Below are positions 2,442 through 59,977 of a stretch of 64,000 bases of DNA, piece after piece. Below the pieces are notes generated by a model. That model searched no databases, was not told the origin of the DNA, and was given only the letters and a program-made list of their open reading frames with translations. The stretch is taken from positions 1 through 64,000 of the forward strand of contig CALSUG010000006.1 in assembly GCA_943789475.1 (NCBI GenBank). Reading direction: 5' to 3'. Position numbers and translations under genes: made by a program. This stretch comes from an uncultured Alphaproteobacteria bacterium (GTDB taxonomy: Bacteria > Pseudomonadota > Alphaproteobacteria > Micavibrionales > UBA1664). Numbering within the stretch: the stretch's first letter is position 1; every line of letters starts with the position of its first letter.

Positions 2442-3185
2442 ATGGATTTAGCACTAATGGGACATAACAACCCACCAAGCGAAATGGAAATATTACGTGA
2501 GCGTTTAGAGGCTCATGTAGAGCAAAAAGAAACTCTTGAGCGTCTATCGTCAAAAGAAATACCTGAAAGCGTAGATAGTGAAGATGAGGCAGGAAAAATA
2601 ACCGACCACATCAAGTTATTGAAGGTTTTGCGTGGAGATATTGAAAAGATATTTAAGCAAGAAAAATCTCCATTCTGGGATTGTTGCAAGGCCGCAGATG
2701 AATGGAAAAATTCTTATTGGAAAAAAATTGACGCTTCGATCGCGGATGCAAGCAAGCCTGTATTGGCATGGCATAAAAAGAAAGAAGAAGAAGAGCGTCA
2801 AAGACAATTGGAAATTGCGCGTAAAGCGCAAGAAGAGGCTGAAAAATTAGCTTTAGAAGCTGAGGCGCACGCCGATGCAGGAATTGTTGATACCGCAGAT
2901 TCTTTAATGAATGCCGCCGTCCAAGAGGACGAAAAATCAAGAATGATAGCTCAAAACCTTTCAAACGGATTATCAACAAAATCAGTCGGCGGTTTCTCAA
3001 CGGCATCAAACCGCAAGCCATGGACAGGCAGATTAGAAAGCCGTCCAGCATTAGATCTTGAGGCTCTTAGAAATTACTTCTCAGACGATGCGTTAGACAA
3101 GGCGATTAAATCAGCCGTTCGTGATGGTGTTCGCACTTTACGAGGGGCAACTATCTTTCAAGAAAACAAGCTATCAGTTCGATAA
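2442..3185 (+). CDS. Phage coiled-coil protein between annealase and SSB, 247 aa
   Basis: The product begins MDLALMGHNNPPSEME; a GHNNPP motif near the N-terminus is common in uncharacterised phage proteins of Alphaproteobacteria. Residues 25-75 and 100-150 are strongly helical, the latter a KKKEEEERQRQLEIARKAQE coiled coil. The C-terminal 60 residues look folded (RPALDLEALRNYFSDDALDKA). Its position between the Rad52-like annealase and SSB suggests a role in the recombination module, but no activity can be read from the sequence. Confidence 0.6.
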   Translation: MDLALMGHNNPPSEMEILRERLEAHVEQKETLERLSSKEIPESVDSEDEAGKITDHIKLLKVLRGDIEKIFKQEKSPFWDCCKAADEWKNSYWKKIDASIADASKPVLAWHKKKEEEERQRQLEIARKAQEEAEKLALEAEAHADAGIVDTADSLMNAAVQEDEKSRMIAQNLSNGLSTKSVGGFSTASNRKPWTGRLESRPALDLEALRNYFSDDALDKAIKSAVRDGVRTLRGATIFQENKLSVR

Positions 3186-3205
3186 ACAGAAAAGGAAATT
3201 AAGAC

Positions 3206-3670
3206 ATGGCAGGTTCATTAAATAAAGTAATGCTAATTGGAAATTTGGGACAAGAACCCGATATTCGATCAATGCAAAACGGTGGAAAGGTTTGTAATCT
3301 TTCAATCGCAACATCCGACACGTGGAAATGTAAAAACACAGGTGAACGCAAAGAAAAGACAGAATGGCACCGTGTTGTTGTGTTCAATGAAGGCTTGATT
3401 GGTGTAATTGAAAACTACGTCAAAAAAGGTTCAAAGGTGTTCATTGAGGGACAACTTGAAACACGTAAATGGCAAGACCAAAACGGCAATGACAAATATT
3501 CAACCGAGATCATTTTAAAGAACTTCAATGGCACTTTAACGATGCTTGATGGTCGCGATGGACAATCGGGTGGTCAACAAAACCAACAACCAGCGCAACA
3601 GCAGTCACAAGGCGGATATACACCAAGGAACGCGCATCATGACGACTTTGAAGACGACGTGCCTTTCTAA
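3206..3670 (+). CDS. ssb: Single-stranded DNA-binding protein
   Basis: A 154-residue SSB. The OB fold occupies residues 1-110 (NKVMLIGNLGQEPDIR at the start, then EKTEWHRVVVFN, YVKKGSKVFIEGQLETRKWQ). A Gln/Gly-rich linker (residues 118-140) leads to the acidic tip DDFEDDVPF, which in the family binds partner proteins. As one of the element's early genes it probably protects single strands for the Rad52-type annealase. It is an accessory copy; the chromosomal SSB must lie elsewhere. Confidence 0.93.
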   Translation: MAGSLNKVMLIGNLGQEPDIRSMQNGGKVCNLSIATSDTWKCKNTGERKEKTEWHRVVVFNEGLIGVIENYVKKGSKVFIEGQLETRKWQDQNGNDKYSTEIILKNFNGTLTMLDGRDGQSGGQQNQQPAQQQSQGGYTPRNAHHDDFEDDVPF

Positions 3671-3682
3671 GTAGGTGATGCC

Positions 3683-4222
3683 ATGAGTGATAACCAATTC
3701 TACCAATTAAAAAACATGGATGTTCTCGCAAAGATAGTGAGCGACATCACGAAGGTTTTGCAGGGTGATGTTTTGTATGAAGTGGTTTTGCGCCCCTTTA
3801 AATCAAAACGAAGCCTCGCTCAAAATTCTCTGTATTGGCTTTGGTTAACCGAAATATCCAGCCAGATAAAAACAGCAGATGGCAAGCTTTTGGATAAGGA
3901 AGAATGGCACTATTTATGCGGATTAAAATTCATTGGCGTTAAGAGTTTTGATGTGATGGGAAAAACATATGTAACCCCAATGAAAAGCACAACAAAACTA
4001 ACAACAAAGGAATTTACGGATTATCTCATGCAGATAGAAGCCGAATTTCTATCCCGTGGTGCAGGTCTAACGTTTCCAGATGCGTATGAGCTTGCAATGC
4101 ACGGAACGAAACAGAATAGGGTCACGAAATCGGAACAGTCCCCCTTGCCCGAGTTACCCCCTCTCGCTTCACCTCAAGGTCGTGATAGAGGCGAAGCATC
4201 ATATTCAAGGCAATCAGCATGA
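3683..4222 (+). CDS. NinB-like phage recombination protein
   Basis: A 179-residue protein with the NinB/Orf pattern: an N-terminal strand region, then VVLRPFKSKRSLAQNSLYWLWLTEIS, followed by a GKLLDKEEWHYLCGLKFIG segment and an MKSTTKLTTKEFTDYLMQIEAE helix. In lambda, NinB (Orf) is a recombination mediator that helps load recombinase on SSB-coated DNA. The setting next to ssb and a Rad52-type annealase agrees with that. The last 35 residues are Pro/Ser-rich and variable. Confidence 0.8.
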   Translation: MSDNQFYQLKNMDVLAKIVSDITKVLQGDVLYEVVLRPFKSKRSLAQNSLYWLWLTEISSQIKTADGKLLDKEEWHYLCGLKFIGVKSFDVMGKTYVTPMKSTTKLTTKEFTDYLMQIEAEFLSRGAGLTFPDAYELAMHGTKQNRVTKSEQSPLPELPPLASPQGRDRGEASYSRQSA

Positions 4223-4302
4223 GAATGATTGCCAGCATAATAATTTTACTAATCATCGGCCTGATTTGTTGGGGTGAAGATATGGAAGGACACGAAGAAT
4301 GA
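4219..4302 (+). CDS. Very small membrane protein, 27 aa
   Basis: An ATGA overlap couples its start to the NinB-like stop, and its stop overlaps the next start in the same way. The product is one hydrophobic helix (MIASIIILLIIGLICW) with an acidic tail (GEDMEGHEE). Perfect packing between two genes supports real translation. Function unknown; small single-helix proteins are common in phage early regions. Confidence 0.5.
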   Translation: MRMIASIIILLIIGLICWGEDMEGHEE

Positions 4303-4682
4303 ATACAAATAAAAAACAAGAAGATATGTTTCACGCGTTTGACGCTTCATCTGTTTTGTATGGAAATGATAGCGGACAAGTGAAGTGGTGCGCTCAAACA
4401 AATAGCCTTGATTATGAATTAATGTCTGATGATTTTGAAAACCATTGCGCCATCGTTACAGGCACAAAATACGTTTTACAACGTACGCAAACTGTAACCG
4501 CCATTGATGGCTTCACATGGTCTGTATGGGATGGTGGACTGACGGGACGATTGCTTAAAGGTGGAATTAAAACACTTGATCAAGCGATGCAACATGTTCG
4601 CTCGCTTATTCCCCCTCATAAAATTAGAAAAGCACAACAACAATGCCCTGATTATATTTCAGGCCAAAGAGAGAGAATATAA
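4299..4682 (+). CDS. Hypothetical protein, 127 aa
   Basis: Coupled to the preceding 27-residue frame by ATGA. A soluble protein with a beta-rich centre (GFTWSVWDGGLTGRLLKGG) and a helical, basic C-terminus. No family is recognised. It lies in the accessory part of the early operon, downstream of the recombination genes. Confidence 0.5.
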   Translation: MNTNKKQEDMFHAFDASSVLYGNDSGQVKWCAQTNSLDYELMSDDFENHCAIVTGTKYVLQRTQTVTAIDGFTWSVWDGGLTGRLLKGGIKTLDQAMQHVRSLIPPHKIRKAQQQCPDYISGQRERI

Positions 4683-4684
4683 CC

Positions 4685-4855
4685 ATGACAAAAGAAGACC
4701 AATCAATATTCGCAACCCTGCGTGACATCGCCTTAGTAATAGTTCTGCTATTCATCTTAGGCATGTCCTTTGGCTATGGCGTAACACAAATGGTTGAGGC
4801 CAAGACATACATCATCGAAGTCCACGACACGACACAGCCGGATGAGGTGGAGTGA
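4685..4855 (+). CDS. Small membrane protein, 56 aa
   Basis: Starts 2 nt after the previous stop. One membrane helix (residues 14-34, around ALVIVLLFILGMSFGYG) follows a short charged N-terminus. The C-terminal 20 residues are acidic. Its stop shares bases with the next ATG (TGATG). No family is recognised; it is supported by tight packing in the operon. Confidence 0.5.
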   Translation: MTKEDQSIFATLRDIALVIVLLFILGMSFGYGVTQMVEAKTYIIEVHDTTQPDEVE

Positions 4856-5067
4856 TGAATTACAGGATAGTAAAAGGGTCTTCTTTTGGGCATGCGTTTT
4901 TTGAAATTCAGGCAAAAAAGAAATTTTTCGGAATCTCGTACTGGGAAAAACATCACGTGATTTACATCAACAAATCGGATGCGGAACTAGCTTACAGGCA
5001 AGCAAAGAAACTAATGAAACAACTTGAGAATATAGAAAATGAACACACTAACACCAGAGCAGATTGA
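4855..5067 (+). CDS. Hypothetical basic protein, 70 aa
   Basis: The ATG at 4855 overlaps the preceding TGA. Lysine- and aromatic-rich N-terminal half with alternating strands (FFEIQAKKKFFGISYWEKHHVIYI), then a helix (AELAYRQAKKLMKQLENIE). No family is recognised. Its 3' end overlaps the next gene by 29 nt in another frame. Confidence 0.5.
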   Translation: MNYRIVKGSSFGHAFFEIQAKKKFFGISYWEKHHVIYINKSDAELAYRQAKKLMKQLENIENEHTNTRAD

Positions 5068-5530
5068 TGAAGCCACTGAATGGATTAGTCAAATTGACGC
5101 AGTCGTAATTGAAGGAACATTACCACAAGCGAAAACCATTCTAATCGCCCTAGAAATGGCGAAGGGGAATATTGATAAATTGTTCCAATTAAAACAACTT
5201 ACAGATGTTCAATGCGACGATGGAAACTGGAATTACGATCCATACATGCACGGCATGGCAAACGGTATGATTTTTTCACAATCCGTCATGGAAGGTTGTG
5301 AGCCTAAGTATAAGGATGCGCCCGATACGTGGTTAGCGAAGGGGAACGTTTGGGGTGACCTGTTGCCTCTTGAGATAGTTCAAGGCGACTCTATGAAAAG
5401 ACTTAACCCACATGCGGGACAATTAGTAAACTCCAATGAGGTTTGGTTTGTCACACAGCCTGTCAAAAATATGCATACCGCAAGAGAGTTATTAAAAACC
5501 CTACCAACCCCACCAAAAGAAAGCAATTAA
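5039..5530 (+). CDS. Hypothetical protein, 163 aa
   Basis: An acidic soluble protein. A helical N-terminus (residues 5-60) is followed by an aromatic-rich stretch (GNWNYDPYMHGMANGMIFSQ) and a C-terminus ending in PTPPKES. The same PPKES ending occurs in the next gene product. The MHGMANGMIFS pattern resembles segments in small phage proteins of unknown role. No activity can be assigned. Confidence 0.5.
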   Translation: MNTLTPEQIDEATEWISQIDAVVIEGTLPQAKTILIALEMAKGNIDKLFQLKQLTDVQCDDGNWNYDPYMHGMANGMIFSQSVMEGCEPKYKDAPDTWLAKGNVWGDLLPLEIVQGDSMKRLNPHAGQLVNSNEVWFVTQPVKNMHTARELLKTLPTPPKESN

Positions 5531-5818
5531 ATGAATTTAAGAGTGGCTGTAAATGGCGAATATTTTGATGATGCGAAAGCAGGGATTAAAACACATGAAT
5601 ATAGGTTAAAAACACCCTATTGGACAAAACGCCTTGTAGGTCGGCATTACGATACTTTCACAATGACAAAAGGTTATCCCAAACGTGGTGACAAAGAAAG
5701 AATATTAACGATGCCATACCGTGGATATGAGGAACAAACGATCACGCATAAGCATTTTGGCGATAAACCAGTTGATGTTTTTGCAATAATTATAACCCCA
5801 CCAAAAGAAAGCGAGTGA
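5531..5818 (+). CDS. ASCH-domain protein
   Basis: 95 residues matching the phage ASCH family pattern: VNGEYFDDAKAGIKTHEYRL, then YWTKRLVGRHYDTF, a GYPKRGD turn, and a C-terminal strand (KPVDVFAIII). ASCH domains have a PUA-like beta barrel and are thought to bind RNA; some have nuclease or amidohydrolase activity. The gene starts directly after the previous stop. Role in the element unknown. Confidence 0.7.
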   Translation: MNLRVAVNGEYFDDAKAGIKTHEYRLKTPYWTKRLVGRHYDTFTMTKGYPKRGDKERILTMPYRGYEEQTITHKHFGDKPVDVFAIIITPPKESE

Positions 5819-5820
5819 GT

Positions 5821-5997
5821 ATGAAAGCACACCACATTGTAACCGCAACCCTGTTTTATCTTTCAACATATTGCTTGGCTGTTGGAATAGATATTTTAGA
5901 CAAGTTCAATTATGAGGAACAAATAGCGTATGGCTTAATCGGGTTATTTGCCCTAATTTTCGTGGGTCTTATTTTAGCACCAAAGGATGCTTTTTAA
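5821..5997 (+). CDS. Small two-helix membrane protein, 58 aa
   Basis: Two hydrophobic helices (residues 6-24 and 38-54) joined by an acidic loop (DILDKFNYEEQ). An in-frame GTG at 5815 overlaps the previous stop and is an alternative start; the ATG at 5821 is taken here. No family is recognised. A small holin-like or signalling role is possible but unsupported. Confidence 0.5.
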   Translation: MKAHHIVTATLFYLSTYCLAVGIDILDKFNYEEQIAYGLIGLFALIFVGLILAPKDAF

Positions 5998-5998
5998 A

Positions 5999-6988
5999 AT
6001 GACAGATAACGAAAAAGAATTGATGCCAAAAAAACTTTCATACAGAACGAAAGAATTTGATGATTGGGGTGTTGTAAGAGATTCAGAAACTGGAAAAATG
6101 TTTTGCTTATTGCGTGTTTTAGGCGGTATTGAAGAGCAAGACAAACACAGAGCCGATAAAACAGACCCGTGCGAGCCTATGGCTGTTGAACTTATTAAAC
6201 GTTGGAACTCACGCCCCCAACCATCCGCAGATGTGGGGATAGCTATTACGTATTTAGACACTATTACAAATAGGCGTTTGTTAGAGGATACCGCGAATAA
6301 TCCATACAGGAGGCTTGCTTATATGTCAGAGTTACATCATATCCGCCAAGCCCTAACCCAACCAAAGGGTGATGATTTTAAACAACTAACGTTCGGACGT
6401 GGAATGTTAGATATTAACAACATAACGTTTGAAGGCCGTGACGGGTTGCTATTCAAAAAGCGCATCAACTATTCACCTGTTGGGACAGAAGATAAAGAAA
6501 AACTTGGTGAAACGGAATTTTACAAAGATGATATTGTTTTCTGGTTTGATACCAAGGAAGGCGCGGAAAATCTAATTAATGAAATAGCCTTATGTGCAAA
6601 TATTAACAAACCAAAGGCAGTGGATGTTGAGGGGTTGATACGAGTACAAAAAACTATAAAAAAATGTGCTAAAATTGCACACAGGTATAGAGATATAAAT
6701 ACTTCCGTGGATTTGAATATCGCTTGGGAAAACATAACCTATATTATCGACCAATCATCCGAACAAGGCCTATTAAACACCAACGAGCGTGTGAAGGAAT
6801 TGGCAAATACACTTACCGATACACGGACTGTTTGTAACCATTGGCGCAAATTAGCGCACGAGCGTGAAACGCAACTCAAAATGGCTACGGATGCTTTGAA
6901 TAAGATTGAGCGTACGTCAAACGATGATCTTGCGAAAAACCAATCAAGAAAAGCCCTACAACAAATGGAAGGAGGTAGAGATGAATAA
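5999..6988 (+). CDS. Hypothetical phage accessory protein, 329 aa
   Basis: The ATG at 5999 has AAGGA 11 nt upstream; an in-frame ATG at 5987 is the alternative. It is the largest unassigned product of the element. An N-terminal module (residues 1-75) ends in ELIKRWNSRP, a W-N-x-R signature seen in Lar-like and related phage early proteins, but without their zinc cysteines. The middle is beta-rich and the C-terminal 100 residues are helical. It may be a mosaic of phage modules. Confidence 0.5.
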   Translation: MTDNEKELMPKKLSYRTKEFDDWGVVRDSETGKMFCLLRVLGGIEEQDKHRADKTDPCEPMAVELIKRWNSRPQPSADVGIAITYLDTITNRRLLEDTANNPYRRLAYMSELHHIRQALTQPKGDDFKQLTFGRGMLDINNITFEGRDGLLFKKRINYSPVGTEDKEKLGETEFYKDDIVFWFDTKEGAENLINEIALCANINKPKAVDVEGLIRVQKTIKKCAKIAHRYRDINTSVDLNIAWENITYIIDQSSEQGLLNTNERVKELANTLTDTRTVCNHWRKLAHERETQLKMATDALNKIERTSNDDLAKNQSRKALQQMEGGRDE

Positions 6989-7100
6989 GCCTTATATTGC
7001 GGTCATAATATATCTTATTTTATCGTCAGTAATCGTATCATCGTATTTGGCTATAAAATCCCCTTATTATCAAGAAAAACAAAAAGGATCGGGGGAGTGA
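6981..7100 (+). CDS. Small membrane protein, 39 aa
   Basis: A strong GGAGG ribosome site (6971-6975) lies just before the ATG, and the gene overlaps the end of the 329-residue gene. One membrane helix (IAVIIYLILSSVIVSSYLAI) precedes a polar, basic tail. It shares bases with the next start (GTGATG). Function unknown. Confidence 0.5.
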   Translation: MNKPYIAVIIYLILSSVIVSSYLAIKSPYYQEKQKGSGE

Positions 7101-7342
7101 TGAAAATTGAAATTGTTGATCAAAGAAAATCAGATGAATGCGGTTGTCCAGAGGAGGACTTGATAATCGGCATGTGTTTTTTAACAATCCACTTGGAAAA
7201 AGACAACTCAGGGCATTTGTTTTTAGACATGGGTGATTGGGATGAAGAGAAGCTCGTCGAATGTGATGGAACAATAGAAGATTTACGCAATCGCGCCCAC
7301 GATTGGGTGGAACAAATACATATTAACACTTTAGAACACTAA
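7100..7342 (+). CDS. Small acidic protein with CGCP motif, 80 aa
   Basis: The ATG at 7100 overlaps the preceding TGA. It carries DECGCPEEDL near the N-terminus and a later single Cys, and is acidic throughout. The paired cysteines might bind metal, but there is no complete zinc-finger set. Last gene before the integration module. No family recognised. Confidence 0.5.
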   Translation: MKIEIVDQRKSDECGCPEEDLIIGMCFLTIHLEKDNSGHLFLDMGDWDEEKLVECDGTIEDLRNRAHDWVEQIHINTLEH

Positions 7343-7354
7343 AACATCCTTTTC

Positions 7355-7395
7355 ATGAAGTCAGAACAATCTTCCCTTTTGCGTTCTGGCTTCAT
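7355..7395. repeat. 13-bp inverted repeat between early operon and integration genes
   Basis: The left arm ATGAAGTCAGAAC (7355-7367) pairs with the right arm GTTCTGGCTTCAT (7383-7395), with one G-T wobble and a 15-nt loop. No run of T follows, so it is a poor intrinsic terminator. It lies just upstream of the HTH and integrase genes, where it could control transcription into them or bind a directionality factor. Confidence 0.5.
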
Positions 7396-7422
7396 CAAGG
7401 GGATATAGAGAGGAGTATAAAT

Positions 7423-7692
7423 ATGATTGGAGAAAAAGCTTTTAGCACAAAGCAATTATCAGAAAGATGGGGCGTTTCACAACCAACCATTCACAACATG
7501 GCCAAAAATGGTGATATTTCATTTTTTTGGATAGGAAAACAAAGGAGATTCTTAGCATGCGAAATCAGAAGGATAGAAAACTTAAACTCTACAGAGGCAC
7601 ATGGTGCGTCGTCTGGACAGATGAGCATGGAAAGACCAAACGTCACTCCCTTCGTACCAAGTGTCGGAATGAGGCAGAGCGCAACCATTTAG
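7423..7692 (+). CDS. Helix-turn-helix protein, excisionase-like
   Basis: 89 residues behind an AGAGGAG ribosome site. Residues 5-50 fit the winged helix-turn-helix found in excisionases and MerR/AlpA relatives: FSTKQLSERWGVSQPTIHNMAKNG, then a wing FFWIGKQRRFLACEIRR. Such proteins set the direction of integrase action or activate it. The last 136 nt overlap the integrase gene out of frame, so the C-terminal 40 residues may be little constrained. Excisionase is inferred from size and position. Confidence 0.65.
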   Translation: MIGEKAFSTKQLSERWGVSQPTIHNMAKNGDISFFWIGKQRRFLACEIRRIENLNSTEAHGASSGQMSMERPNVTPFVPSVGMRQSATI

Positions 7693-8519
7693 AGTACGCC
7701 AAGCAATTACAGTATTCTGGCGATACTGTGAACGACATCATTGAACAATGGTTGGAGGAAAAAAAGAACCTCAAATCAATGGGCAATATATTGGGGCGCG
7801 TCCATAATATTAAAAAATTCTTTGGTCATTATTACCCAGACCAAATAAACAGGCCATTATGTCGTGCATATGGTCAGTTTAGGCAAGTGTCCAACACCAC
7901 AGTGAAAAATGAGCTTTCTATTTTGCGATGTGCCATACGTTGGAACAACCCGCAAACAAAGGCCATATTTGAATTACCTGCACCGAATGCTCCAAGAGAT
8001 ATTCGTATAACAAAGGACGAATATAAAACCCTATTAAAGCATGCAAATTCGCCACACATAAAACTGTTTGTGATACTCGCAATCGCCACGGCTGGTCGTG
8101 TTAGCGCACTGCTAGAATTAACCTGGGACAGAGTAAATTTTGAGAAAAAGCAAATTCAACTATCAACTGGCGATCATAAGAATAAAAGACGCGCACTTGT
8201 TCCCATGACTGAAAATTTAAGAGAGGCATTAGAGGAAGCGTATATCGCAAGAACATCTGACTATGTGATTGAATATGGATCAAAAAAAATCAATTCAATT
8301 AGAAAGGGTTTTAAAGAAACAGCAAAGAAAGCTGGACTTGATCATATATCGCCACATGTACTAAGACACAGTGCCGCATCATGGATGGCAGAAGGCGGAA
8401 TCCCCATGGCAGAAATTGCACAATATTTAGGGCACACAAACCCATCAATCACATATAAGGTGTATGCTAGATATTCACCTGATTATTTGAGAGAAGCGGC
8501 TTCTGTATTGGATATTTAG
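7557..8519 (+). CDS. int: Tyrosine recombinase (integrase)
   Basis: A 320-residue site-specific recombinase. The ATG at 7557 was chosen because AGGAG lies about 11 nt before it. The catalytic set is present: R181 (ATAGRVSALLELTW), a lysine in the beta hairpin near 208-210, H267 and R270 (SPHVLRHSA), H293 (YLGHTN) and the nucleophile Y303 (KVYARYSPDYL). The first 70 residues form a short arm-binding region and 50-130 the core-binding domain. The gene lies 65 nt from the 3' end of tRNA-Phe, the usual layout for tRNA-integrating elements. It looks intact and active. Confidence 0.93.
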   Translation: MRNQKDRKLKLYRGTWCVVWTDEHGKTKRHSLRTKCRNEAERNHLEYAKQLQYSGDTVNDIIEQWLEEKKNLKSMGNILGRVHNIKKFFGHYYPDQINRPLCRAYGQFRQVSNTTVKNELSILRCAIRWNNPQTKAIFELPAPNAPRDIRITKDEYKTLLKHANSPHIKLFVILAIATAGRVSALLELTWDRVNFEKKQIQLSTGDHKNKRRALVPMTENLREALEEAYIARTSDYVIEYGSKKINSIRKGFKETAKKAGLDHISPHVLRHSAASWMAEGGIPMAEIAQYLGHTNPSITYKVYARYSPDYLREAASVLDI

Positions 8520-8584
8520 GTTCAAATGAACTAACGAAACATGGATTTAATGAAAAATAAAACGTTATATATCAGAGGTTTAAA

Positions 8585-8660
8585 TGGTGGTCGAGGGCGG
8601 GCTTGAACCGCCGACACACGGATTTTCAATCCGTTGCTCTACCAACTGAGCTACTCGACC
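8585..8660 (-). tRNA. tRNA-Phe (GAA), probable attachment site
   Basis: A complete cloverleaf on the minus strand. The acceptor GGTCGAG (8660-8654) pairs with CTCGACC, the anticodon stem ACGGA/TCCGT has loop TTGAAAA giving anticodon GAA, the T arm is GGCGG-TTCAAGC-CCGCC, the discriminator is A, and CCA is encoded at 8587-8585. The 3' end faces the integrase gene, so the 3' half of the tRNA is probably the attachment core and was restored on integration. The other att copy must lie off the left edge. Confidence 0.95.
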
Positions 8661-8731
8661 ATCTTTATTGGTGCTAAGTTTATATGCAATATTGATGCAC
8701 ATGTCCATAGGGGAATTGATGATTATTCAAA

Positions 8732-9955
8732 CTATTCATCAATATCACCCATTTCAAACATCACTAGTTTTTCTTCCAGCGTCGGTGTACGACGTTGGCG
8801 CGATATTTCAAATACACCTAATTCCGTTATTCCATGACATTGAACCGTACATGGATCATTTTCAAAGGCATCATCCAATGCCTGTAACACCTTATCCTTT
8901 TGTGATTGTTGCTTCATATTAATAAAGTCAGCCATGACAATGCCACCAATATTACGAATGCGTAATTGACGTTCAATTTCACGCGCAGCCTCGAGATTTA
9001 CATTTAGAATACTTTTATCCGCACCTTTATTGACATCAATAACCGTCATTGACGCTGTGCGTTCGATAATAATCGATCCACCAGACGGCAAAACAACATA
9101 AGATTTTAACAACCCCTCAAATTGTCCTAACAAATCGTGCACTTCGAATAACCCCATACCAGATCGCGTATTATCAACACCACGAGGTTCAATCTTTGTC
9201 ATTAAATCTGGCGCAAACAAATCGCACCATTCTTCAGTTTCTTCAAAAATTTCCATGGTTGATGCAGAAATAGAATCAACAGTACTTGCCGCCAGATCAC
9301 CCAATGTACGGTGCACAGCATCTGGTCCCATCATGAGCAATGTTGCCTCTTCCTCACCATCATATTCACATAAACCACCCCAGATAGCGTTAAGGATTTT
9401 TCCTTCGCGAACCAACATGTCCGTTTGGCAATTGGCCGCACTTGAACGAAGAATGCATCCCTCAAGTTCATCTACGCCTTTCAACATAGATTTAAGGTCA
9501 GAGCGTAGCTTCTTATCCAAAATACGTTTGGACACCCGTGTCTCCTTGGCAAAAGGTGTATAGATCAAAAAACGCCCCTGTAAGGCTATGTCCATAGACA
9601 GACGTGACGCCTTCACATTATTAGAATCATCACCACCTGTTGGATTGTGTGGCGATTTCACCTGCACCAAAACCATTTCACCAGATGTTAAGACTTGGCC
9701 AATTTTTTTACCTTTTGGTACTGGTTTACCCTCAAGGCGAACATCCTTTAACGGTAACATGCCTTCAAAACCGAAACCCAAATCAATAAATGCACAATCT
9801 GATGATTTATCAATACGGGCCACACGCCCTATATAAACAGACCCCCAACGAATAATTTCTGCATAGGGATCAATTTCCAAATTTTGAATTTTGTTCTTTT
9901 TATCGATTGCAACCGCCCAAAGCGATCCCTCTAGGTCTTCAATTAAAATATCCAT
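8732..9955 (-). CDS. rng: Ribonuclease E/G family protein
   Basis: A 407-residue endoribonuclease that would cut single-stranded RNA at AU-rich sites in mRNA decay or rRNA processing. An S1-like domain lies near residues 35-130 (GSVYIGRVARID, GFEGMLPL). The catalytic DNase I-like part contains VIDVNKGADKS and IVMADFINM, whose aspartates bind the metal in RNase E. It lacks the CPxC zinc link and the long scaffold of RNase E and is shorter than E. coli RNase G (about 489), so it is the small alphaproteobacterial type. Confidence 0.9.
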   Translation of the reverse strand: MDILIEDLEGSLWAVAIDKKNKIQNLEIDPYAEIIRWGSVYIGRVARIDKSSDCAFIDLGFGFEGMLPLKDVRLEGKPVPKGKKIGQVLTSGEMVLVQVKSPHNPTGGDDSNNVKASRLSMDIALQGRFLIYTPFAKETRVSKRILDKKLRSDLKSMLKGVDELEGCILRSSAANCQTDMLVREGKILNAIWGGLCEYDGEEEATLLMMGPDAVHRTLGDLAASTVDSISASTMEIFEETEEWCDLFAPDLMTKIEPRGVDNTRSGMGLFEVHDLLGQFEGLLKSYVVLPSGGSIIIERTASMTVIDVNKGADKSILNVNLEAAREIERQLRIRNIGGIVMADFINMKQQSQKDKVLQALDDAFENDPCTVQCHGITELGVFEISRQRRTPTLEEKLVMFEMGDIDE

Positions 9956-9973
9956 GAAAATATCTTATCTCAC

Positions 9974-11317
9974 TTATGGGGCAATGACCATGCAATTACG
10001 CAAGTACGCGCATGCCTTTTGCGCAGTATGCTCATCAAACCCTTTTAGTCGGGCGCGGTATATTGTGCGACTTCCTGTTGTTAGAGGCATTGTGTTTGCA
10101 CTCGCCAATTTACGAAGTTCCACTGGTAAAGATTTTGATGCAACATTCATCGCCTGCTGTGATATTTTTTGTGATGAATAGGCACCAATTTGCACCGCCC
10201 ACTGATCACCATTCATATTCTCGACTTCGCCAAACTGCCCAACACCATTAATTTGTGCACGACGTCCGGAATGTGCCGCAATCGCCAATAATCCTGTTTC
10301 TAAACGTGATGCGGCACGCGGATCAACATCCCCCTGCCCTAACATTTCATCAATACGCTTATCATTATTATCGTTTGAATAATTTGCGACCTTTGGTTTT
10401 GTCGCTATTACTTGATTAGCTTTCAAAGACGCCAATACGATTTGTGTAATATCTGGTTTCGCTTGCGGTGTTGGCACACGAACAGATGCAAGACGTGTTG
10501 GTGGTAATTTACGCGCTAGTTGAAAACCATGATCCATAATCTCGGCCATATGACTGTTTCGTGATTTTGATGAACGACCACCAAACACAACAGCAACCAA
10601 ACGTCGGTTATTACGTACCGCCGATGCAACCAAGTTAAATCCAGATGCATGAATATAACCCGTTTTAATACCGTCCATTCCTTCGTAAGAAGTCAAAAGT
10701 TTATTATGGTTTTTATAACTGTTTCCACGGTACTTAAATTTTTTCGTAGAAAAATAATGATAATATTGCGGATGATTATAAATCAAAGCACGCGCCAAAA
10801 TTGCCATATCACGTGCTGTTGTTTTTTGCCTTTTGTTCGGCAGCCCAGATGCATTTTTAAATGTTGTTGAACGCATTCCCAGTGAACGAGCCTTTGCCGT
10901 CATCTTGGTTGCAAATCCCCATTCCGTTCCACCAATTTTTTCGGCCAATGCTGCTGCGACGTCATTCGCTGACTTTGTAACCAATGCATATACAGCGTCT
11001 TCAACCTTAATTGAAGAACCAATTGGTAAATTTAACTTACTTGGCACCATACCTGCCGCATGTTTTGATATACGAACACGTTCATTTAGGCGAAGTTGTC
11101 CACGTGATAACGCATCAAACGTCATATACAGCGTCATCATTTTCGTTAATGAGGCCGGATATAAGGGCTTATTTGCATTACGGGAACGTAAAACTTTACC
11201 ACTTTCTGCATCAACAACGATCGATGCGTATTTCGCATTTGCTTGCACATCATTTGCACCACTAAACACTAGAGTTATCAAAAATAGTAAGAAAAGGAAT
11301 ACAGGGCGAAAAATCAT
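9974..11317 (-). CDS. dacA: D-alanyl-D-alanine carboxypeptidase (PBP5 family) with SPOR domain
   Basis: 447 residues. A signal peptide (1-26) is followed by a penicillin-binding transpeptidase-like domain with SxxK (S56-K59, PASLTKMM), SxN (S116-N118, KSANDV) and KTG (218-220). The enzyme trims the terminal D-Ala from peptidoglycan stems in the periplasm. Residues about 372-447 form a SPOR domain (WAVQIGAYSSQ), which binds denuded glycan at division sites; this fusion is common in Alphaproteobacteria. It lies between the RNase gene (18 nt away) and a recX-like gene, all on the minus strand. Confidence 0.92.
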   Translation of the reverse strand: MIFRPVFLFLLFLITLVFSGANDVQANAKYASIVVDAESGKVLRSRNANKPLYPASLTKMMTLYMTFDALSRGQLRLNERVRISKHAAGMVPSKLNLPIGSSIKVEDAVYALVTKSANDVAAALAEKIGGTEWGFATKMTAKARSLGMRSTTFKNASGLPNKRQKTTARDMAILARALIYNHPQYYHYFSTKKFKYRGNSYKNHNKLLTSYEGMDGIKTGYIHASGFNLVASAVRNNRRLVAVVFGGRSSKSRNSHMAEIMDHGFQLARKLPPTRLASVRVPTPQAKPDITQIVLASLKANQVIATKPKVANYSNDNNDKRIDEMLGQGDVDPRAASRLETGLLAIAAHSGRRAQINGVGQFGEVENMNGDQWAVQIGAYSSQKISQQAMNVASKSLPVELRKLASANTMPLTTGSRTIYRARLKGFDEHTAQKACAYLRNCMVIAP

Positions 11318-54807: not shown

Positions 54808-55791
54808 ATGTCATTGAGAATTATTCAAATAACACTTCCCGCCGAACGTAAAAAAACCATGATACAAATCGCGGAAACACACAAAGCATTGGATGTATGG
54901 TGGGAACCAAAAAATGAAGATGGCATTCGCACAATATCTATTTTAGTCGACAATCATAATCAGCAAAAAATATTAGATAGTATCCAAACTCATATGGGAG
55001 AAAGCATGGATTGGCGGGCGGTCCTGCTCCCCGTTGAAGCAAGCTTGCCAAAACAAGAAAACAATAGAAAACCCCACAAATTTAAATGGCGTAAATCTCT
55101 TACCCGTGAAGAACTGTATCAAGAAGTAGCCAATGGTGCTGAGGGAGATTTACTTTTTTATCTTATGGTTTTTCTTTCAACTATCGTCGCAGCCATCGGT
55201 CTTATTCAAGATAACGTTGCGATCGTTATCGCAGCCATGGTGATTGCACCACTTTTGGGCCCCAATCTCGCCCTATCTTTTGCAACAGCACTCGGTGACA
55301 AACCCCTCATATTAAAATCCCTTTTAACATGCACCGGTGGTTTAATCGCCGCAATCATTCCATGTATTATCTTAGGACACTTTCTACCAGTAGACTTAGG
55401 AAGCGAAGAATTATTCGCGCGCACAAATATTAATTACGCCGCAATTATCCTTGCGCTCGCTTCTGGTGCCGCGGCTGTATTATCACTGACTACTGGTGTG
55501 TCATCCGCATTAGTTGGCGTTATGGTATCGGTTGCACTCCTCCCTCCCGCGGCAGCATTTGGTATTTATATTGGTTTAAATCAATATAATTTAGCCATGG
55601 ATAGCGGATTTCTCCTTCTTACAAATCTTTCTAGTATTGGGGTATCCGCCCAAGTTGTATTGGCCTTCATGGGGATTCGTCCACGAACATTTTTGGAAAA
55701 AAGATCCGCCAATCAATCTAGCCTTGTCCAAATTGGAATTTGCACAATTTTATTGGCAATAATTTCTATCGTTATTACCTACAAAAATTAA
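54808..55791 (+). CDS. DUF389 family membrane protein
   Basis: 327 residues. A soluble ACT-like N-terminal region (residues 1-85, LRIIQITLPAERKKTMIQIAE) is followed by six or so membrane helices with the DUF389 signature: FYLMVFLSTIVAAIGLIQDNVAIVIAAMVIAPLLGPNLALSFA (in parts) and VSVALLPPAAAFGIYIG. The family is widespread and its function unknown. Confidence 0.88.
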   Translation: MSLRIIQITLPAERKKTMIQIAETHKALDVWWEPKNEDGIRTISILVDNHNQQKILDSIQTHMGESMDWRAVLLPVEASLPKQENNRKPHKFKWRKSLTREELYQEVANGAEGDLLFYLMVFLSTIVAAIGLIQDNVAIVIAAMVIAPLLGPNLALSFATALGDKPLILKSLLTCTGGLIAAIIPCIILGHFLPVDLGSEELFARTNINYAAIILALASGAAAVLSLTTGVSSALVGVMVSVALLPPAAAFGIYIGLNQYNLAMDSGFLLLTNLSSIGVSAQVVLAFMGIRPRTFLEKRSANQSSLVQIGICTILLAIISIVITYKN

Positions 55792-55794
55792 AAG

Positions 55795-55809
55795 GTACAA
55801 ATTTTGTCC
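55795..55809. promoter_or_regulatory. Palindromic operator-like site A
   Basis: GTACAAA-T-TTTGTCC, a 7-1-7 palindrome with one mismatch, followed by TAAT, 46 bp before the ATG of the 116-residue gene at 55856. A near-copy at 58636-58650 lies upstream of the NifU-like gene at the other end of the same locus. It is probably a shared transcription-factor site. Confidence 0.5.
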
Positions 55810-55855
55810 TAATGGGTTGCAATTGATTTTTTGTTTGTTTAAAATCAAACGCAAG

Positions 55856-56206
55856 ATGCTAGCAACTTTAGAAAAAACAGATAATGCCACAATTGTTACA
55901 TCAACTGATGATATAACAGTAAGTCAAGGCGCGTTTGAATTGGAAATTCCAACATCTATTCAATCATCACTGGATGAAATTTTAAATTATTATAAATGCT
56001 CCTGTATGAAACCTGTGATAAAAACGCAAGGATCGCCATTGGATGTCACAACAGCATTGGTGCGTGAAGTTAAACAAAGCCTTCCAAATAATTTGCAAAC
56101 TGATGCTAAAACTTTACTCGACTTTATGATTAAAGAGATTGTGACTTATTGCCGTGAAACATCCGCAAGCTCTCTCTCTCTCAATTTTTCGTTTGAAAAG
56201 ATGTAA
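55856..56206 (+). CDS. Hypothetical protein upstream of the repeat protein, 116 aa
   Basis: The ATG at 55856 opens a soluble, helical protein with no signal peptide. One notable segment is NYYKCSCMKPVIKTQ, with a CxC. No family recognised. The repeat protein gene starts 5 nt after its stop, so the two are translated together. The palindrome at 55795 lies in its promoter region. Confidence 0.6.
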   Translation: MLATLEKTDNATIVTSTDDITVSQGAFELEIPTSIQSSLDEILNYYKCSCMKPVIKTQGSPLDVTTALVREVKQSLPNNLQTDAKTLLDFMIKEIVTYCRETSASSLSLNFSFEKM

Positions 56207-56211
56207 CAATA

Positions 56212-57864
56212 ATGGGATGTCCTGCTCTAAAAACACCTGATCAACTTGATGTGCGTCTTATGTCTGCAAATACCAATGGTGCACCTGGCGAAATTGCAAA
56301 GCAATTGGCCGAAATGTACGGTTTTCAAAAACAACGTCACAACACCATGGACGGATCTAGCCCTTCTAATTTTGACCACCGCACAATCACAGCATTAGCA
56401 CAAACACCGCACATTGCCCTATCCGTTGTTCCGTCACAAAATAATGACATGCGTGATACGGACCTCACCATAGAGCAAATAAATCTACAACTCGATCTTA
56501 TTGAAAAAGCGGGTAGTGATCTTGATATTCATCACGAAAAAATTAATGAAAAAGTTCACGCAATAAAAACACAACCAAAAGCTTCTCTATTTAAACAAGC
56601 TATAAATGCCATGGTTGCACAGGTTGCAAACATTAATAAACCCGCACAAGCCACACCACAAACAGCAGCGCCCGTTGAAGCAAAAGTAGCAACACCCGCA
56701 CAAGCCACACCACAAACAGCAGCGCCCGTTGAAGCAAAAGTAGCAACACCCGCACAAGCCACACCACAAACTGCAGCGCCCGTTGAAGCAAAAGTAACAA
56801 CACCCGCACAAGCCACACCACAAACAGCAGCGCCCGTTGAAGCAAAAGTAGCAACACCCGCACAAGCCGCACCACAGCCAGCGGCTCCTGTACAAACGGC
56901 ACCAACGCAACCTGCACCTGTGGCACCAACACCACAACCAACGGCTCCTGTACAAACGGCACCAACGCAACCTGCACCTGTGGCACCAACACCACAACCA
57001 ACGGCTCCTGTACAAACGGCACCAACGCAACCTGCACCTGTGGCACCAACACCACAACCAACGGCGCCTGTACAAACGGCACCAACGCAACCTGCACCTG
57101 TGGCGCCAACACCACAACCAACGGCTCCTGTACAAACGGCACCAACGCAACCTGCACCTGTGGCGCCAACACCACAACCAACGGCTCCTGTACAAACGGC
57201 ACCAACGCAACCTGCACCTGTGGCACCAACACCACAACCAACGGCGCCTGTACAAACGGCACCAACGCAACCTGCACCTGTGGCACCAACACCACAACCA
57301 ACGGCTCCTGTACAAACGGCACCAACGCAACCTGCACCTGTGGCACCAACACCACAACCAACGGCTCCTGTACAAACGGCACCAACGCAACCTGCACCTG
57401 TGGCACCAACACCACAACCAACGGCTCCTGTACAAACGGCACCAACGCAACCTGCACCTGTGGCACCAACACCACAACCAACGGCTCCTGTACAAACGGC
57501 ACCAACGCAACCTGCACCTGTGGCACCAACACCACAACCAACGGCTCCTGTACAAACGGCACCAACGCAACCTGCACCTGTGGCGCCAACACCACAGCCA
57601 GTAGCGCCAGTGTATGCAGAACCAACAAAAACCGTTAGTTATGCATTACCGACGACAGAGACACCCACATTTGCTCAAAAATTGGATGCAGGCCCCCAAT
57701 TAAATGATTTCATGCCCAAAGGCAGTGCTTGCGGAAGTTGTGGAGGTGGTAATTGTGGCGCCTGTGGCGTTAGCTTTAACGCAGCAACCGCTGCAGAAAC
57801 AAATACTGCTGCAGCCCTTTCCTCATCATATCAAGGAAACAAACCCAAAGCGCTAAAATTATAA
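56212..57864 (+). CDS. Repeat protein with CxxC-x4-CxxC tail, 550 aa
   Basis: No known family. Residues 1-143 look folded and helical (GAPGEIAKQLAEMYGFQ; LTIEQINLQLDLIEKAGSDLD). Residues 144-215 are four copies of an 18-residue unit (TPAQATPQTAAPVEAKVA) and 224-463 are twelve copies of TAPVQTAPTQPAPVAPTPQP, both Pro/Ala-rich and surely extended. The end (residues 504-518) is GSACGSCGGGNCGACG with C507, C510, C515 and C518, a likely metal or Fe-S site. There is no signal peptide, so it is probably cytoplasmic. A NifU-domain gene converges 6 nt away. Confidence 0.75.
   Translation: MGCPALKTPDQLDVRLMSANTNGAPGEIAKQLAEMYGFQKQRHNTMDGSSPSNFDHRTITALAQTPHIALSVVPSQNNDMRDTDLTIEQINLQLDLIEKAGSDLDIHHEKINEKVHAIKTQPKASLFKQAINAMVAQVANINKPAQATPQTAAPVEAKVATPAQATPQTAAPVEAKVATPAQATPQTAAPVEAKVTTPAQATPQTAAPVEAKVATPAQAAPQPAAPVQTAPTQPAPVAPTPQPTAPVQTAPTQPAPVAPTPQPTAPVQTAPTQPAPVAPTPQPTAPVQTAPTQPAPVAPTPQPTAPVQTAPTQPAPVAPTPQPTAPVQTAPTQPAPVAPTPQPTAPVQTAPTQPAPVAPTPQPTAPVQTAPTQPAPVAPTPQPTAPVQTAPTQPAPVAPTPQPTAPVQTAPTQPAPVAPTPQPTAPVQTAPTQPAPVAPTPQPTAPVQTAPTQPAPVAPTPQPVAPVYAEPTKTVSYALPTTETPTFAQKLDAGPQLNDFMPKGSACGSCGGGNCGACGVSFNAATAAETNTAAALSSSYQGNKPKALKL
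56641..56856 (+). repeat. Tandem 54-bp repeats, 4 copies
   Basis: Four in-frame copies of a 54-bp unit (starting CCCGCACAAGCCACACCACA) that encode an 18-residue Ala/Pro/Gln/Glu unit. Copies differ by one or two bases, mostly silent (for example AACAGC versus AACTGC), and one T-for-A change in KVT. A fifth partial copy runs into the 60-bp array. Confidence 0.93.
56881..57600 (+). repeat. Tandem 60-bp repeats, 12 copies
   Basis: Twelve head-to-tail copies of a 60-bp unit (start ACGGCTCCTGTACAAACGGC) encoding 20 residues. Copies are identical except for a few single-base changes (GCTCCT/GCGCCT, GCACCA/GCGCCA, the first and last units). Such uniformity implies recent expansion or strong homogenisation, so copy number probably varies between strains. 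Confidence 0.96.
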
Positions 57865-57870
57865 GTAAAA

Positions 57871-58566
57871 CTAACCTAGTTGAGACTTAATAAAGAACCC
57901 TTGTTTTGCGTCAATTGGATTCATAAGAACATTTTCCAGTGCCATAATCGTTTCATTTTCATTAAATGGAGGAAGTTGTTGTAGATTGTTCAACTCGTGA
58001 GCAACGTGATCTCGTAACGATCTTAACGTCGCAACACTCGACAATTGGCAATCGGCACATGAACCAAACAAAATCATATGAACCTCTAACGTTTTTCCAT
58101 TCGGAACAACATCCGTCACAATAATATCACCACCATCATTTTGTAGCTTTTCACGAACACCTTTTTGATCAATCGTGTTATTTACAAGCTGAATGAACAC
58201 GCGTTCATTATCAGGAAGAACCAAGCTATTAAAATCTTGTTGAACAGCTGCGCCATCGACAAGATGTTCTAATTTCTCTAACGATTTTCTACCAATCTCT
58301 CTATCACCGTCGGACCATCGCCCCGTTCCCCTCACGAAAGATAACCTTGTTTTTCCGTTTGGTGTTTGAATAGCATCCATACGCGTAATTCCAGAAACAG
58401 TAGAAAAAACGGATTTTAGCGCATCACTTGCACCTATTCCCTGTTCATTTGCAGGAATCGATAATCTTAAAAAATCCATTTTCCGGGAAATATCAACCGT
58501 CAAAGTATTCAAACTTGGATTATCTTCAACAACTTCAACTTTATTCTTTTTACTAAACCAGCCCAT
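57871..58566 (-). CDS. NifU C-terminal-domain protein
   Basis: 231 residues from the ATG at 58566. The C-terminal part (about 130-200) is a NifU/Nfu domain: LQNDGGDIIVTDV, TLEVHMILFGSCADCQLSSVATLRSLRDHVA, with the CxxC that carries a transient Fe-S cluster. The N-terminal part (RLSIPANEQGIGASDALKSVFSTVSGI) resembles the Nfu N-terminal domain loosely. It probably delivers or repairs Fe-S clusters. It converges on the Cys-tail repeat protein and has a matching palindrome (58636-58650) upstream. Confidence 0.8.
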   Translation of the reverse strand: MGWFSKKNKVEVVEDNPSLNTLTVDISRKMDFLRLSIPANEQGIGASDALKSVFSTVSGITRMDAIQTPNGKTRLSFVRGTGRWSDGDREIGRKSLEKLEHLVDGAAVQQDFNSLVLPDNERVFIQLVNNTIDQKGVREKLQNDGGDIIVTDVVPNGKTLEVHMILFGSCADCQLSSVATLRSLRDHVAHELNNLQQLPPFNENETIMALENVLMNPIDAKQGFFIKSQLG

Positions 58567-58635
58567 GACACACACCCTTCTTTAAATTAATAGGAATATA
58601 TATAAATAAATGACATAACAATGTCCAGGTAAAAA

Positions 58636-58650
58636 GGACAAATTTTGTTC
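58636..58650. promoter_or_regulatory. Palindromic operator-like site B
   Basis: GGACAAA-T-TTTGTTC, followed by TAAT, 70 bp upstream of the NifU-like ATG (minus strand). Together with flanking AAAA and TAAT it nearly repeats site A at 55795-55809, differing by one T in the left arm and one C/T in the right. Confidence 0.5.
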
Positions 58651-58657
58651 TAATTGT

Positions 58658-59977
58658 TTACTTTTGGATCAAAACACGATGCGGGAATGGAATTTCTATA
58701 CCGTGCTCTTTAAATGCATCCCAAAGGGCCAACATGATATCACCCTTTGTATTCGTGACGCCGTTTTCCGCATCTTCTATCCAATAACGCAGGACAAAAT
58801 TAAGGGAACTATCTCCAAATTCAACTAAATGGCAGACAGGTTTCGGATCTGGGCAAACGCGATTGACCTTACTTGCCACCTCTATCCCCAATCGTTTTAC
58901 CAAATGTGGATCACTCTCATAACTCACCCCAAATTGCGTTTCGACACGAATTTTACGATCACTGTACGACCAGTTAATTACAGGTTGCGTTACAAAATCT
59001 TCGTTCGGGATAAGGTATTCTTTATTGTCCCGCGTAATCAATGACACGTAACGTGCACCTAATTGTGACACCCACCCAAACATGCCTGAACCGTCGGTAA
59101 GTTCAATCACATCGCCAGGTTTTATTGATTTATCAACCAGCAATAACATTCCTGAGAACAGGTTTGAAATCACCTTTTGCAAACCAAAACCAATACCAAG
59201 GCCAAGCGCACCACCAAATATTGCCAAAGCGGACAAATCAATACCCGCGGTGGTTACACCGATCAATATTGCCAGTGATATCAGCGTTATTTTTATAATT
59301 TTAATTAACAAAACACGCGCCGATGGTGTTAAGTCAGTTGCACGTTGCAATGACCTTTCTGCAGTATTGGTCAACAATCTTGTCACGGTCAATAAAATAA
59401 AAATCGCGATAACAAATTTAGTAATCGTCAATAGAGACAAACGCCAATCACCAAAATCCATACCTATGGCATCAAGAGCGGATTTCGTTTGTTCCATCAC
59501 GCCCATAATGGACAATGCCGCAATGATCCAACCGCTCATCGCGACAATTTGGCGAACAAAATTATTCTCTATCACCTGTGCAAAAACACGAATAAGTATC
59601 CATGCGATTAGTAATTTAGCAACAGCGCTTAACAATGAACGATCAATATCGGGAAACCCTGCCATTAAAATAATTTGCGCCGAACCAATAAACATCAAGG
59701 CACCTAATTGCAATGTTAATTTTGTTAGGTTTTTTAAAATACGATTAACACGATATGAAACATTCAACCGGTCAATAGCATTAACCAATCGCGCTCGTGT
59801 CATTCCACGAAAAAACCATCCTGAGAAATAAGATGCAATTAAAAGTAAAATCACAATCCAATGATTTTGATTCCACAAATATTCCGTTGCCATAGCATAA
59901 AAATCAACAACCGCCTCATTCGTTTTTTGAATTGTTATTTCGGGTATTTCCACATTGATTTCTGGTGTATTGCTCAT
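58658..59977 (-). CDS. MscS-family mechanosensitive channel, larger type
   Basis: 439 residues. About five N-terminal membrane helices precede the MscS core: IAVIF-type TM3 AIFGGALGLGIGFGLQKVISNLFSGMLLLVDKSIKPGDVIEL (in parts), with the cytoplasmic beta domain (RYVSLITRDNKEYLIPNEDFV) and a cage end (IEIPFPHRVLIQK). It is a distinct paralogue of the 306-residue MscS at 33281. Role in osmotic protection is by family. Confidence 0.92.
   Translation of the reverse strand: MSNTPEINVEIPEITIQKTNEAVVDFYAMATEYLWNQNHWIVILLLIASYFSGWFFRGMTRARLVNAIDRLNVSYRVNRILKNLTKLTLQLGALMFIGSAQIILMAGFPDIDRSLLSAVAKLLIAWILIRVFAQVIENNFVRQIVAMSGWIIAALSIMGVMEQTKSALDAIGMDFGDWRLSLLTITKFVIAIFILLTVTRLLTNTAERSLQRATDLTPSARVLLIKIIKITLISLAILIGVTTAGIDLSALAIFGGALGLGIGFGLQKVISNLFSGMLLLVDKSIKPGDVIELTDGSGMFGWVSQLGARYVSLITRDNKEYLIPNEDFVTQPVINWSYSDRKIRVETQFGVSYESDPHLVKRLGIEVASKVNRVCPDPKPVCHLVEFGDSSLNFVLRYWIEDAENGVTNTKGDIMLALWDAFKEHGIEIPFPHRVLIQK

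Follow-up and report, generated by a model that had tools for sequence, protein, structure and literature searches.

An undescribed gene set conserved in Micavibrio relatives suggests a new form of metal-cluster handling under starvation

The window analyzed here, a stretch of 64,000 nucleotides from an uncultured alphaproteobacterium of the order Micavibrionales, contains two adjacent plus-strand genes, P1 and P2, and a minus-strand NifU-like gene, Nfu2, with a palindrome before each of the two transcription units (Table 1). The first-pass annotation had proposed an undescribed Fe–S or metal-handling unit under shared control, and the question is whether these genes belong together and, if so, what they might do. 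We find a conserved, undescribed gene set in Micavibrio relatives that suggests new metal-cluster handling under starvation.

Table 1. Features of the P1–P2 and Nfu2 locus in the window
Feature	Coordinates	Strand	Remarks
Palindromic box before P1–P2	55795..55809	+	GTACAAATTTTGTCC, then TAAT
P1, 116 aa, new family	55856..56206	+	core helix-strand-helix-helix-strand
P2, 550 aa	56212..57864	+	conserved N-terminal domain, Ala/Pro repeat linker, and Cys tail
P2 N-terminal conserved domain (P2-N)	56212..56526	+	fused to P1 in other loci
P2 linker, Ala/Pro rich	56640..57610	+	54-nt (18-aa) repeats x4, then 60-nt (20-aa) repeats about x12
Tail motif CGSCGGGNCGAC (CxxC-x4-CxxC)	57730..57765	+	C507-x2-C510-x4-C515-x2-C518
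Nfu2, 231 aa, diverged second Nfu-like protein	57871..58566	-	tail-to-tail with P2, 6 nt apart
NifU domain of Nfu2	58012..58164	-	CxxC C170/C173 at 58048-58059
Palindromic box before Nfu2	58636..58650	-	GGACAAATTTTGTTC on the + strand

The P1–P2 family and the cysteine tail

We sought relatives with P1 in 142 genomes of the Micavibrionales, most of the genomes compared being metagenome assemblies. Wherever the contig permits a view, P1 is followed on its 3′ side by a P2-type protein or is fused to one. The concatenated P1 and P2-N sequences of the window match those of G116, G117, and G121 with E-values of 6e-37, 1e-24, and 2e-19, respectively (database size set to 1e9), and a profile recovers the family from 15 genomes at E ≤ 1e-3; named records place it in Micavibrio MAGs. 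Outside the Micavibrionales, a sample of about 780 genomes of the class and phylum contained no member of the family, and the literature searched includes no paper combining Micavibrio with NifU or Micavibrionales with iron–sulfur. By sequence comparison, P1–P2 is a new gene family of the Micavibrionales, often fused; the set with Nfu2 is missing from most genomes of the order, and P1–P2 occurs without Nfu at some loci. We considered and rejected a phage- or plasmid-borne origin of the genes, for which no homologues were found in phage families or in virus or plasmid collections.

Neither P1 and P2 nor their relatives contain a curated Pfam or NCBIfam domain above cutoff. The core blocks of a P1 structure model have pLDDT values mostly of about 80–92 and the model has no fold match in the PDB, and the AlphaFold model of P2-N is unreliable (pLDDT 46). 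An HPr-like fold for P2-N, suggested by its strand and helix pattern as read by eye, was rejected (hhalign probability of 0.2% against PTS-HPr; no match in a search with PF00381). The spacer of P2, which in the window comprises about 16 Ala/Pro repeats of 18–20 residues, differs strongly in length among relatives, whole proteins ranging from about 550 to 2362 aa.

The length and repetitiveness of P2, together with the presence in this order of Micavibrio, an epibiotic predator (PMC3189940), would fit a prey-contact or surface protein made by a predator in metal shortage, its tail catching metal from the prey. This reading is highly improbable in our judgment: by eye, neither P1 nor P2 shows a signal peptide or membrane segment, and Nfu proteins work in the cytoplasm.

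At least four cysteines fall within 10–14 residues in the P2 C-terminus at all 11 Nfu2 loci, and seven of these have a strict CxxC-x3-5-CxxC tail; three of the 11 do not follow the two-CxxC pattern even with loose spacing. The tails read CGSC-GGGN-CGAC in the window, CAGC-FTKA-CGSC in G116, CSGC-FNKS-CAAC in G120, CSGC-FND-CAGC in G140, CLIC-KFGGN-CKDC in G041, CLDC-DRTKG-CC in G112, CGDC-NGTKG-CC in G119, CGGKSCASCGEC in G043, and CSGLCGTCKKC in G121, and are present twice in G044 (CPGC-PGGD-CEKC) and G019 (CVDC-GGGI-CPGC). From this comparison the four-Cys cluster is therefore the most constant part of a very variable C-terminal half, and the CxxC-x4-CxxC tail that the first-pass annotation had reported on the 550-residue protein is indeed there. 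That it binds an Fe–S cluster is our inference, and the metal of the tail is unknown.

The tails are rich in Gly and Cys and variable in spacing, and this, with the cytoplasmic and disordered appearance of P2, would also be compatible with a thiol redox or protein-modification module in which the tail acts as a disulfide switch or is itself a modified peptide, Nfu2 being kept for some other reason. We regard such a module as improbable given the conserved iron- and zinc-type promoter boxes and the Nfu and CobW partners described below, and the loci have no recurrent modification enzyme as a neighbor.

A diverged Nfu convergent with P1–P2

Nfu proteins are general Fe–S carriers, and a match to the Pfam NifU domain (PF01106) was found in 127 of the 142 genomes, nearly all of which encode a housekeeping-type Nfu of about 185–200 aa; that of the window's own genome lies elsewhere (G000:C1:85303). 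The window Nfu2 matches PF01106 with 31.7 bits (E 1.8e-7; cutoff 27), and the Nfu2 proteins of G043 and G116 score 36.6–41 bits; those of G119, G120, and G140 fall below the cutoff. The Nfu_N domain (PF08712) is matched weakly in G121 (2.7e-5) and G044 (0.0025) and not at all by the window copy. The CxxC motif is kept in 10 of the 11 Nfu2 proteins (C170-x2-C173 in the window); the Nfu2-like protein of G019 has lost its spacing and has no Pfam match. The earlier view of this gene as a relative of Fe–S carriers is supported by the NifU domain above cutoff and the CxxC motif, carrier activity being inferred.

A Pfam search detected a diverged second Nfu in nine of 142 genomes, every one convergent with a P1–P2 gene, and two further diverged Nfu-like genes recognized by eye, in G019 and G120, are also convergent with P1–P2. 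The convergent pairing is thus conserved at 11 of 11 loci, at 10 of which the genes are direct neighbors with a stop-to-stop gap of -4 to 367 nt; two small genes intervene in G121. The co-occurrence of Nfu2 and P1–P2 across genomes is significant (p = 1.6e-8), its sole exception being G044, where the P2 gene is cut by the contig end. Conservation of gene order, one of the checks proposed with the original annotation, was examined in this way, and the three genes stay together across families. In a tree, nine of the 11 Nfu2 proteins cluster together (98/96), with very long branches, and a single origin of Nfu2 is not proved.

Like Nfu/NfuA-type carriers, which combine Nfu_N and NifU domains, Nfu2 has a NifU domain with the CxxC motif in all cases but one and, in G121 and G044, a weakly recognizable Nfu_N-like N-terminus; unlike them, it evolves fast as an additional copy next to the housekeeping Nfu and is tied to one partner gene rather than to many clients. 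Such a fixed partnership would provide a natural and testable carrier–client pair in which the cluster site of the client is reduced to about 12 residues.

As a separate observation, a minus-strand Nfu2-like gene at locus L095 (6240-6902) occupies the conserved place beside a P2 whose CxxC tail is present in two complete copies; its product has lost the CxxC spacing (EACVGSGSSC) and has no Pfam match.

Palindromic and Fur-like boxes at the two promoters

Each of the two near-identical palindromes first noted in the window differs at a single base from the perfect 15-bp palindrome GGACAAATTTTGTCC and is followed directly on its 3′ side by TAAT on the plus strand. A -35/-10-like pair lies at 55817-55845, just downstream of the box before P1–P2. 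A genome-wide search for the palindrome had been suggested as a second check, and pattern searches of the window's own genome (1.97 Mb, nine contigs) found three sites with at most one mismatch, these being both window boxes and one site within a coding ORF. The relaxed consensus GKACNAAWNTNGTYC likewise has three exact sites, the third in a serB-like ORF. With two mismatches allowed there are 15 sites compared with 10 for a control; the regulon is therefore not large. The palindrome is rare in its genome, and in relatives it is found again at the same promoters.

Because the palindrome is no commoner than the control at two mismatches, chance neighbors and a chance palindrome could be invoked, an explanation to which we give virtually no credence in view of the adjacency, the uniform convergence, and the co-occurrence of the genes reported above and of a box that is kept at orthologous promoters.

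A DUF389 gene and an mscS-like gene end directly before the palindromes. We rejected the interpretation of the palindromes as transcription terminators of these upstream genes, since nothing resembling a terminator structure was found there and the box is kept in relatives where the neighboring genes differ. The flanking genes in the window encode a DUF389 membrane protein (54808-55791) and an MscS-like channel (58658-59977); DUF389 adjoins P1 in G117 too, but not in G116.

A box of the GGAC-N7-GTCC type is present at both promoters in the window, G116 (GGACAAATATTGTCC and GAACTAATATAGTCC), and G119 (GTACCAAATTAGTCC at Nfu2 and GGACCAATTTTGTCC at P1–P2) and at P1 in G117 (GGACAAATTTCGTCC) and G118 (GTACAAAAATAGTCC). 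The G119 P1–P2 box counts only if the start codon is set slightly downstream of that of the longest ORF. Among control upstream regions from the window's family, one of 132 reaches 9/12 and none of 132 reaches 10/12. We note that the consensus was modeled on the window's own palindrome and then tested on the relatives, that several box scores are weak taken alone, and that several single p-values are only 0.03-0.1. The shared control postulated from the window alone has a counterpart in relatives, where the palindrome-type box recurs at both promoters; which regulator exerts it is inferred.

The only Rrf2 gene found in the window's own genome heads the suf operon (TIGR02944, E 2e-28). In G121 the box before the suf Rrf2 gene, TAGGACTGATTTGGTACTA, is identical in 18 of 19 bases to the Nfu2 box of G119, TAGGACTAATTTGGTACTA, and the suf Rrf2 box of G116, TAGGACTAAAGATGTCCAA, scores 11/12 (p < 0.001); both are strong matches. 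The suf promoters of G119, G115, and G117 have boxes of the same type, but weaker, and that of the window's own genome has only a weak box, TAGGTCTAAGATTGGTACTA, with a spacer one base longer and a score not above chance. P1–P2 and Nfu2 would in this respect resemble a SUF operon under an Rrf2-type regulator (SufR/IscR-like, TIGR02944), with whose Rrf2 gene they have a box type in common in several relatives, unlike which they lie outside the suf operon. The box before P1–P2 in the window is likely an Rrf2-type SUF-regulator site, bearing in mind that regulators were assigned by box similarity only.

In other families, Fur-like boxes stand in place of the palindrome at both promoters. The Fur and Zur consensus sequences used here are general knowledge, the Fur box being the 7-1-7 consensus TGATAATnATTATCA. 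Fur-like boxes occur at both promoters in G043 (TGAGAATGATTCTCA and TGACAATCATTCTCA), G041, and G140 (TGATAATCATTATCA and TGAGAATTATTCTCA) and at one promoter in G112, G044, and G121, with scores of 14/14 for Nfu2 of G140, 13/14 for P1–P2 of G041 and G112, and 12/14 for both promoters of G043 and for P1–P2 of G140. The presence of two distinct iron-related box types at one gene pair is strong evidence for a response of this pair to iron or Fe–S status, even though the identity of the regulators (Rrf2/SUF, Fur) is inferred. Of the original proposal, an iron- or Fe–S-related unit is hence well supported by promoter comparison; an Fe–S cluster on the tail remains an inference.

Nfu-less loci and a proposed mechanism

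P1–P2 loci without Nfu (G140a, G141, G118b, G054, G119a, G075, G112a, and G043a) mostly have another partner of about 200 aa in which an SCC motif is conserved, the downstream gene of G043a being a different one. Their tails are mostly of the CxC or Cys/His type, and several have DUF2946 or CobW neighbors. Neither the long P1–P2 protein nor those SCC partners that were scanned match a Pfam family. Zur-like boxes (consensus TGTTATAnTATAACA) matching at 13-14 of 14 positions precede P1–P2 in G112a, G054, G119a, and G043a and cobW in G112a; such a box is not present at every Nfu-less locus, and none was found before the tested Nfu2-type genes. Zur regulons commonly include CobW/COG0523 genes (PMC6103462), and the Nfu-less version resembles Zur-regulon units with COG0523/CobW metallochaperones in its boxes and CobW neighbors, unlike them including a long P1–P2 protein and an SCC partner without a Pfam family. 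It is apparently a zinc version of P1–P2.

We hypothesize, with confidence that is no more than even, that P1–P2 and Nfu2 constitute a metal-starvation unit of the Micavibrionales in which Nfu2 loads an Fe–S cluster onto, or unloads it from, a tail held on a long Ala/Pro linker. Shortage of iron or Fe–S clusters would lead the Rrf2-type SUF regulator, or Fur in other lineages, to free both promoters, so that P1–P2 and Nfu2 are made; Nfu2, a diverged paralogue of the housekeeping carrier, would exchange an Fe–S cluster, or iron, with the four-Cys tail. The tail terminates a long flexible arm, Ala/Pro-rich or coiled, that would let it reach its target; the conserved P1/P2-N head may dock this arm on a still unknown partner, so that the arm would hold, protect, or deliver the cluster. 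Ala/Pro-rich swinging arms are known, for example, from the lipoyl domains of E2 enzymes; the P2 linker could similarly carry a cofactor-bearing end to distant sites, but it ends in a four-Cys tail instead of a lipoyl domain, and the likeness is an analogy only. The direction of transfer and the role of the head, like cluster binding by the tail and the identity of the regulator, are inferred without experiment.

Alternatively, the tail could be a metal buffer that stores or chelates Fe, Zn, or Cu in the manner of a small tethered metallothionein, with Nfu2 merely an iron donor or sensor. The zinc-type version with its CxC and Cys/His tails and Zur-like boxes, as well as the duplicated tails of G044 and G019, which would be expected if capacity matters, are consistent with a buffer. 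We nevertheless consider one unlikely, since starvation-type control by Fur, Zur, or the SUF regulator suits scavenging and delivery better than detoxifying storage, and a dedicated Nfu with a conserved CxxC points to clusters.

Returning to the starvation unit, the paralogous version, with another partner and CxC tails, would apparently do the same job for zinc under Zur. More tentatively, and with confidence short of even, we suggest that the two represent a new class of metal-specific carrier, built from a head for docking, a flexible arm of great length, and a Cys motif at its end, with paralogous iron–sulfur (Nfu2 partner, Fur/SUF boxes) and zinc (SCC partner, Zur boxes) versions in which a change of metal goes along with changes in tail, partner, and regulator. 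Such versions would let one ask how these three jointly set metal identity. For predatory bacteria, whose handling of metals has been little studied, they would represent an additional, metal-starvation trait.

Several further observations concern the surroundings of P1–P2 genes. Members of the SCC/CC family of about 200 aa adjoin P1–P2 genes at L067 (4946-5593), L025 (8075-8692), L026 (5637-6302), L027 (9315-9968), L028 (8469-9137), and L030 (6998-7579), and several of these proteins have Cys/His residues near the C-terminus. A cluster with Zur-like boxes at L094 (G112:C2:153000-166000; 2711-8738) encodes a CobW GTPase, a MerC-like membrane protein, a DUF2946-like protein, a small Cys protein, a P1–P2 fusion (895 aa), and an SCC partner, with a perfect TGTTATATTATAACA before cobW and before P1–P2. 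At L097 (G043:C13:45000-57000; 4997-11115), a P1–P2 fusion with a duplicated CTCSSC tail lies near a peroxiredoxin-like gene, CobW, and an ABC ATPase, and Zur-like boxes precede P1–P2 and the next gene. The G121 locus (L024/L067) encodes a giant 2362-aa P2 with several Cys stations and combines Nfu2 and an SCC partner with Fur-like and Zur-like boxes. Near the G140 locus, a minus-strand gene (L069, 10749-11819) encodes a protein of 356 aa that contains 24 Cys and in which C-N-G motifs are repeated.
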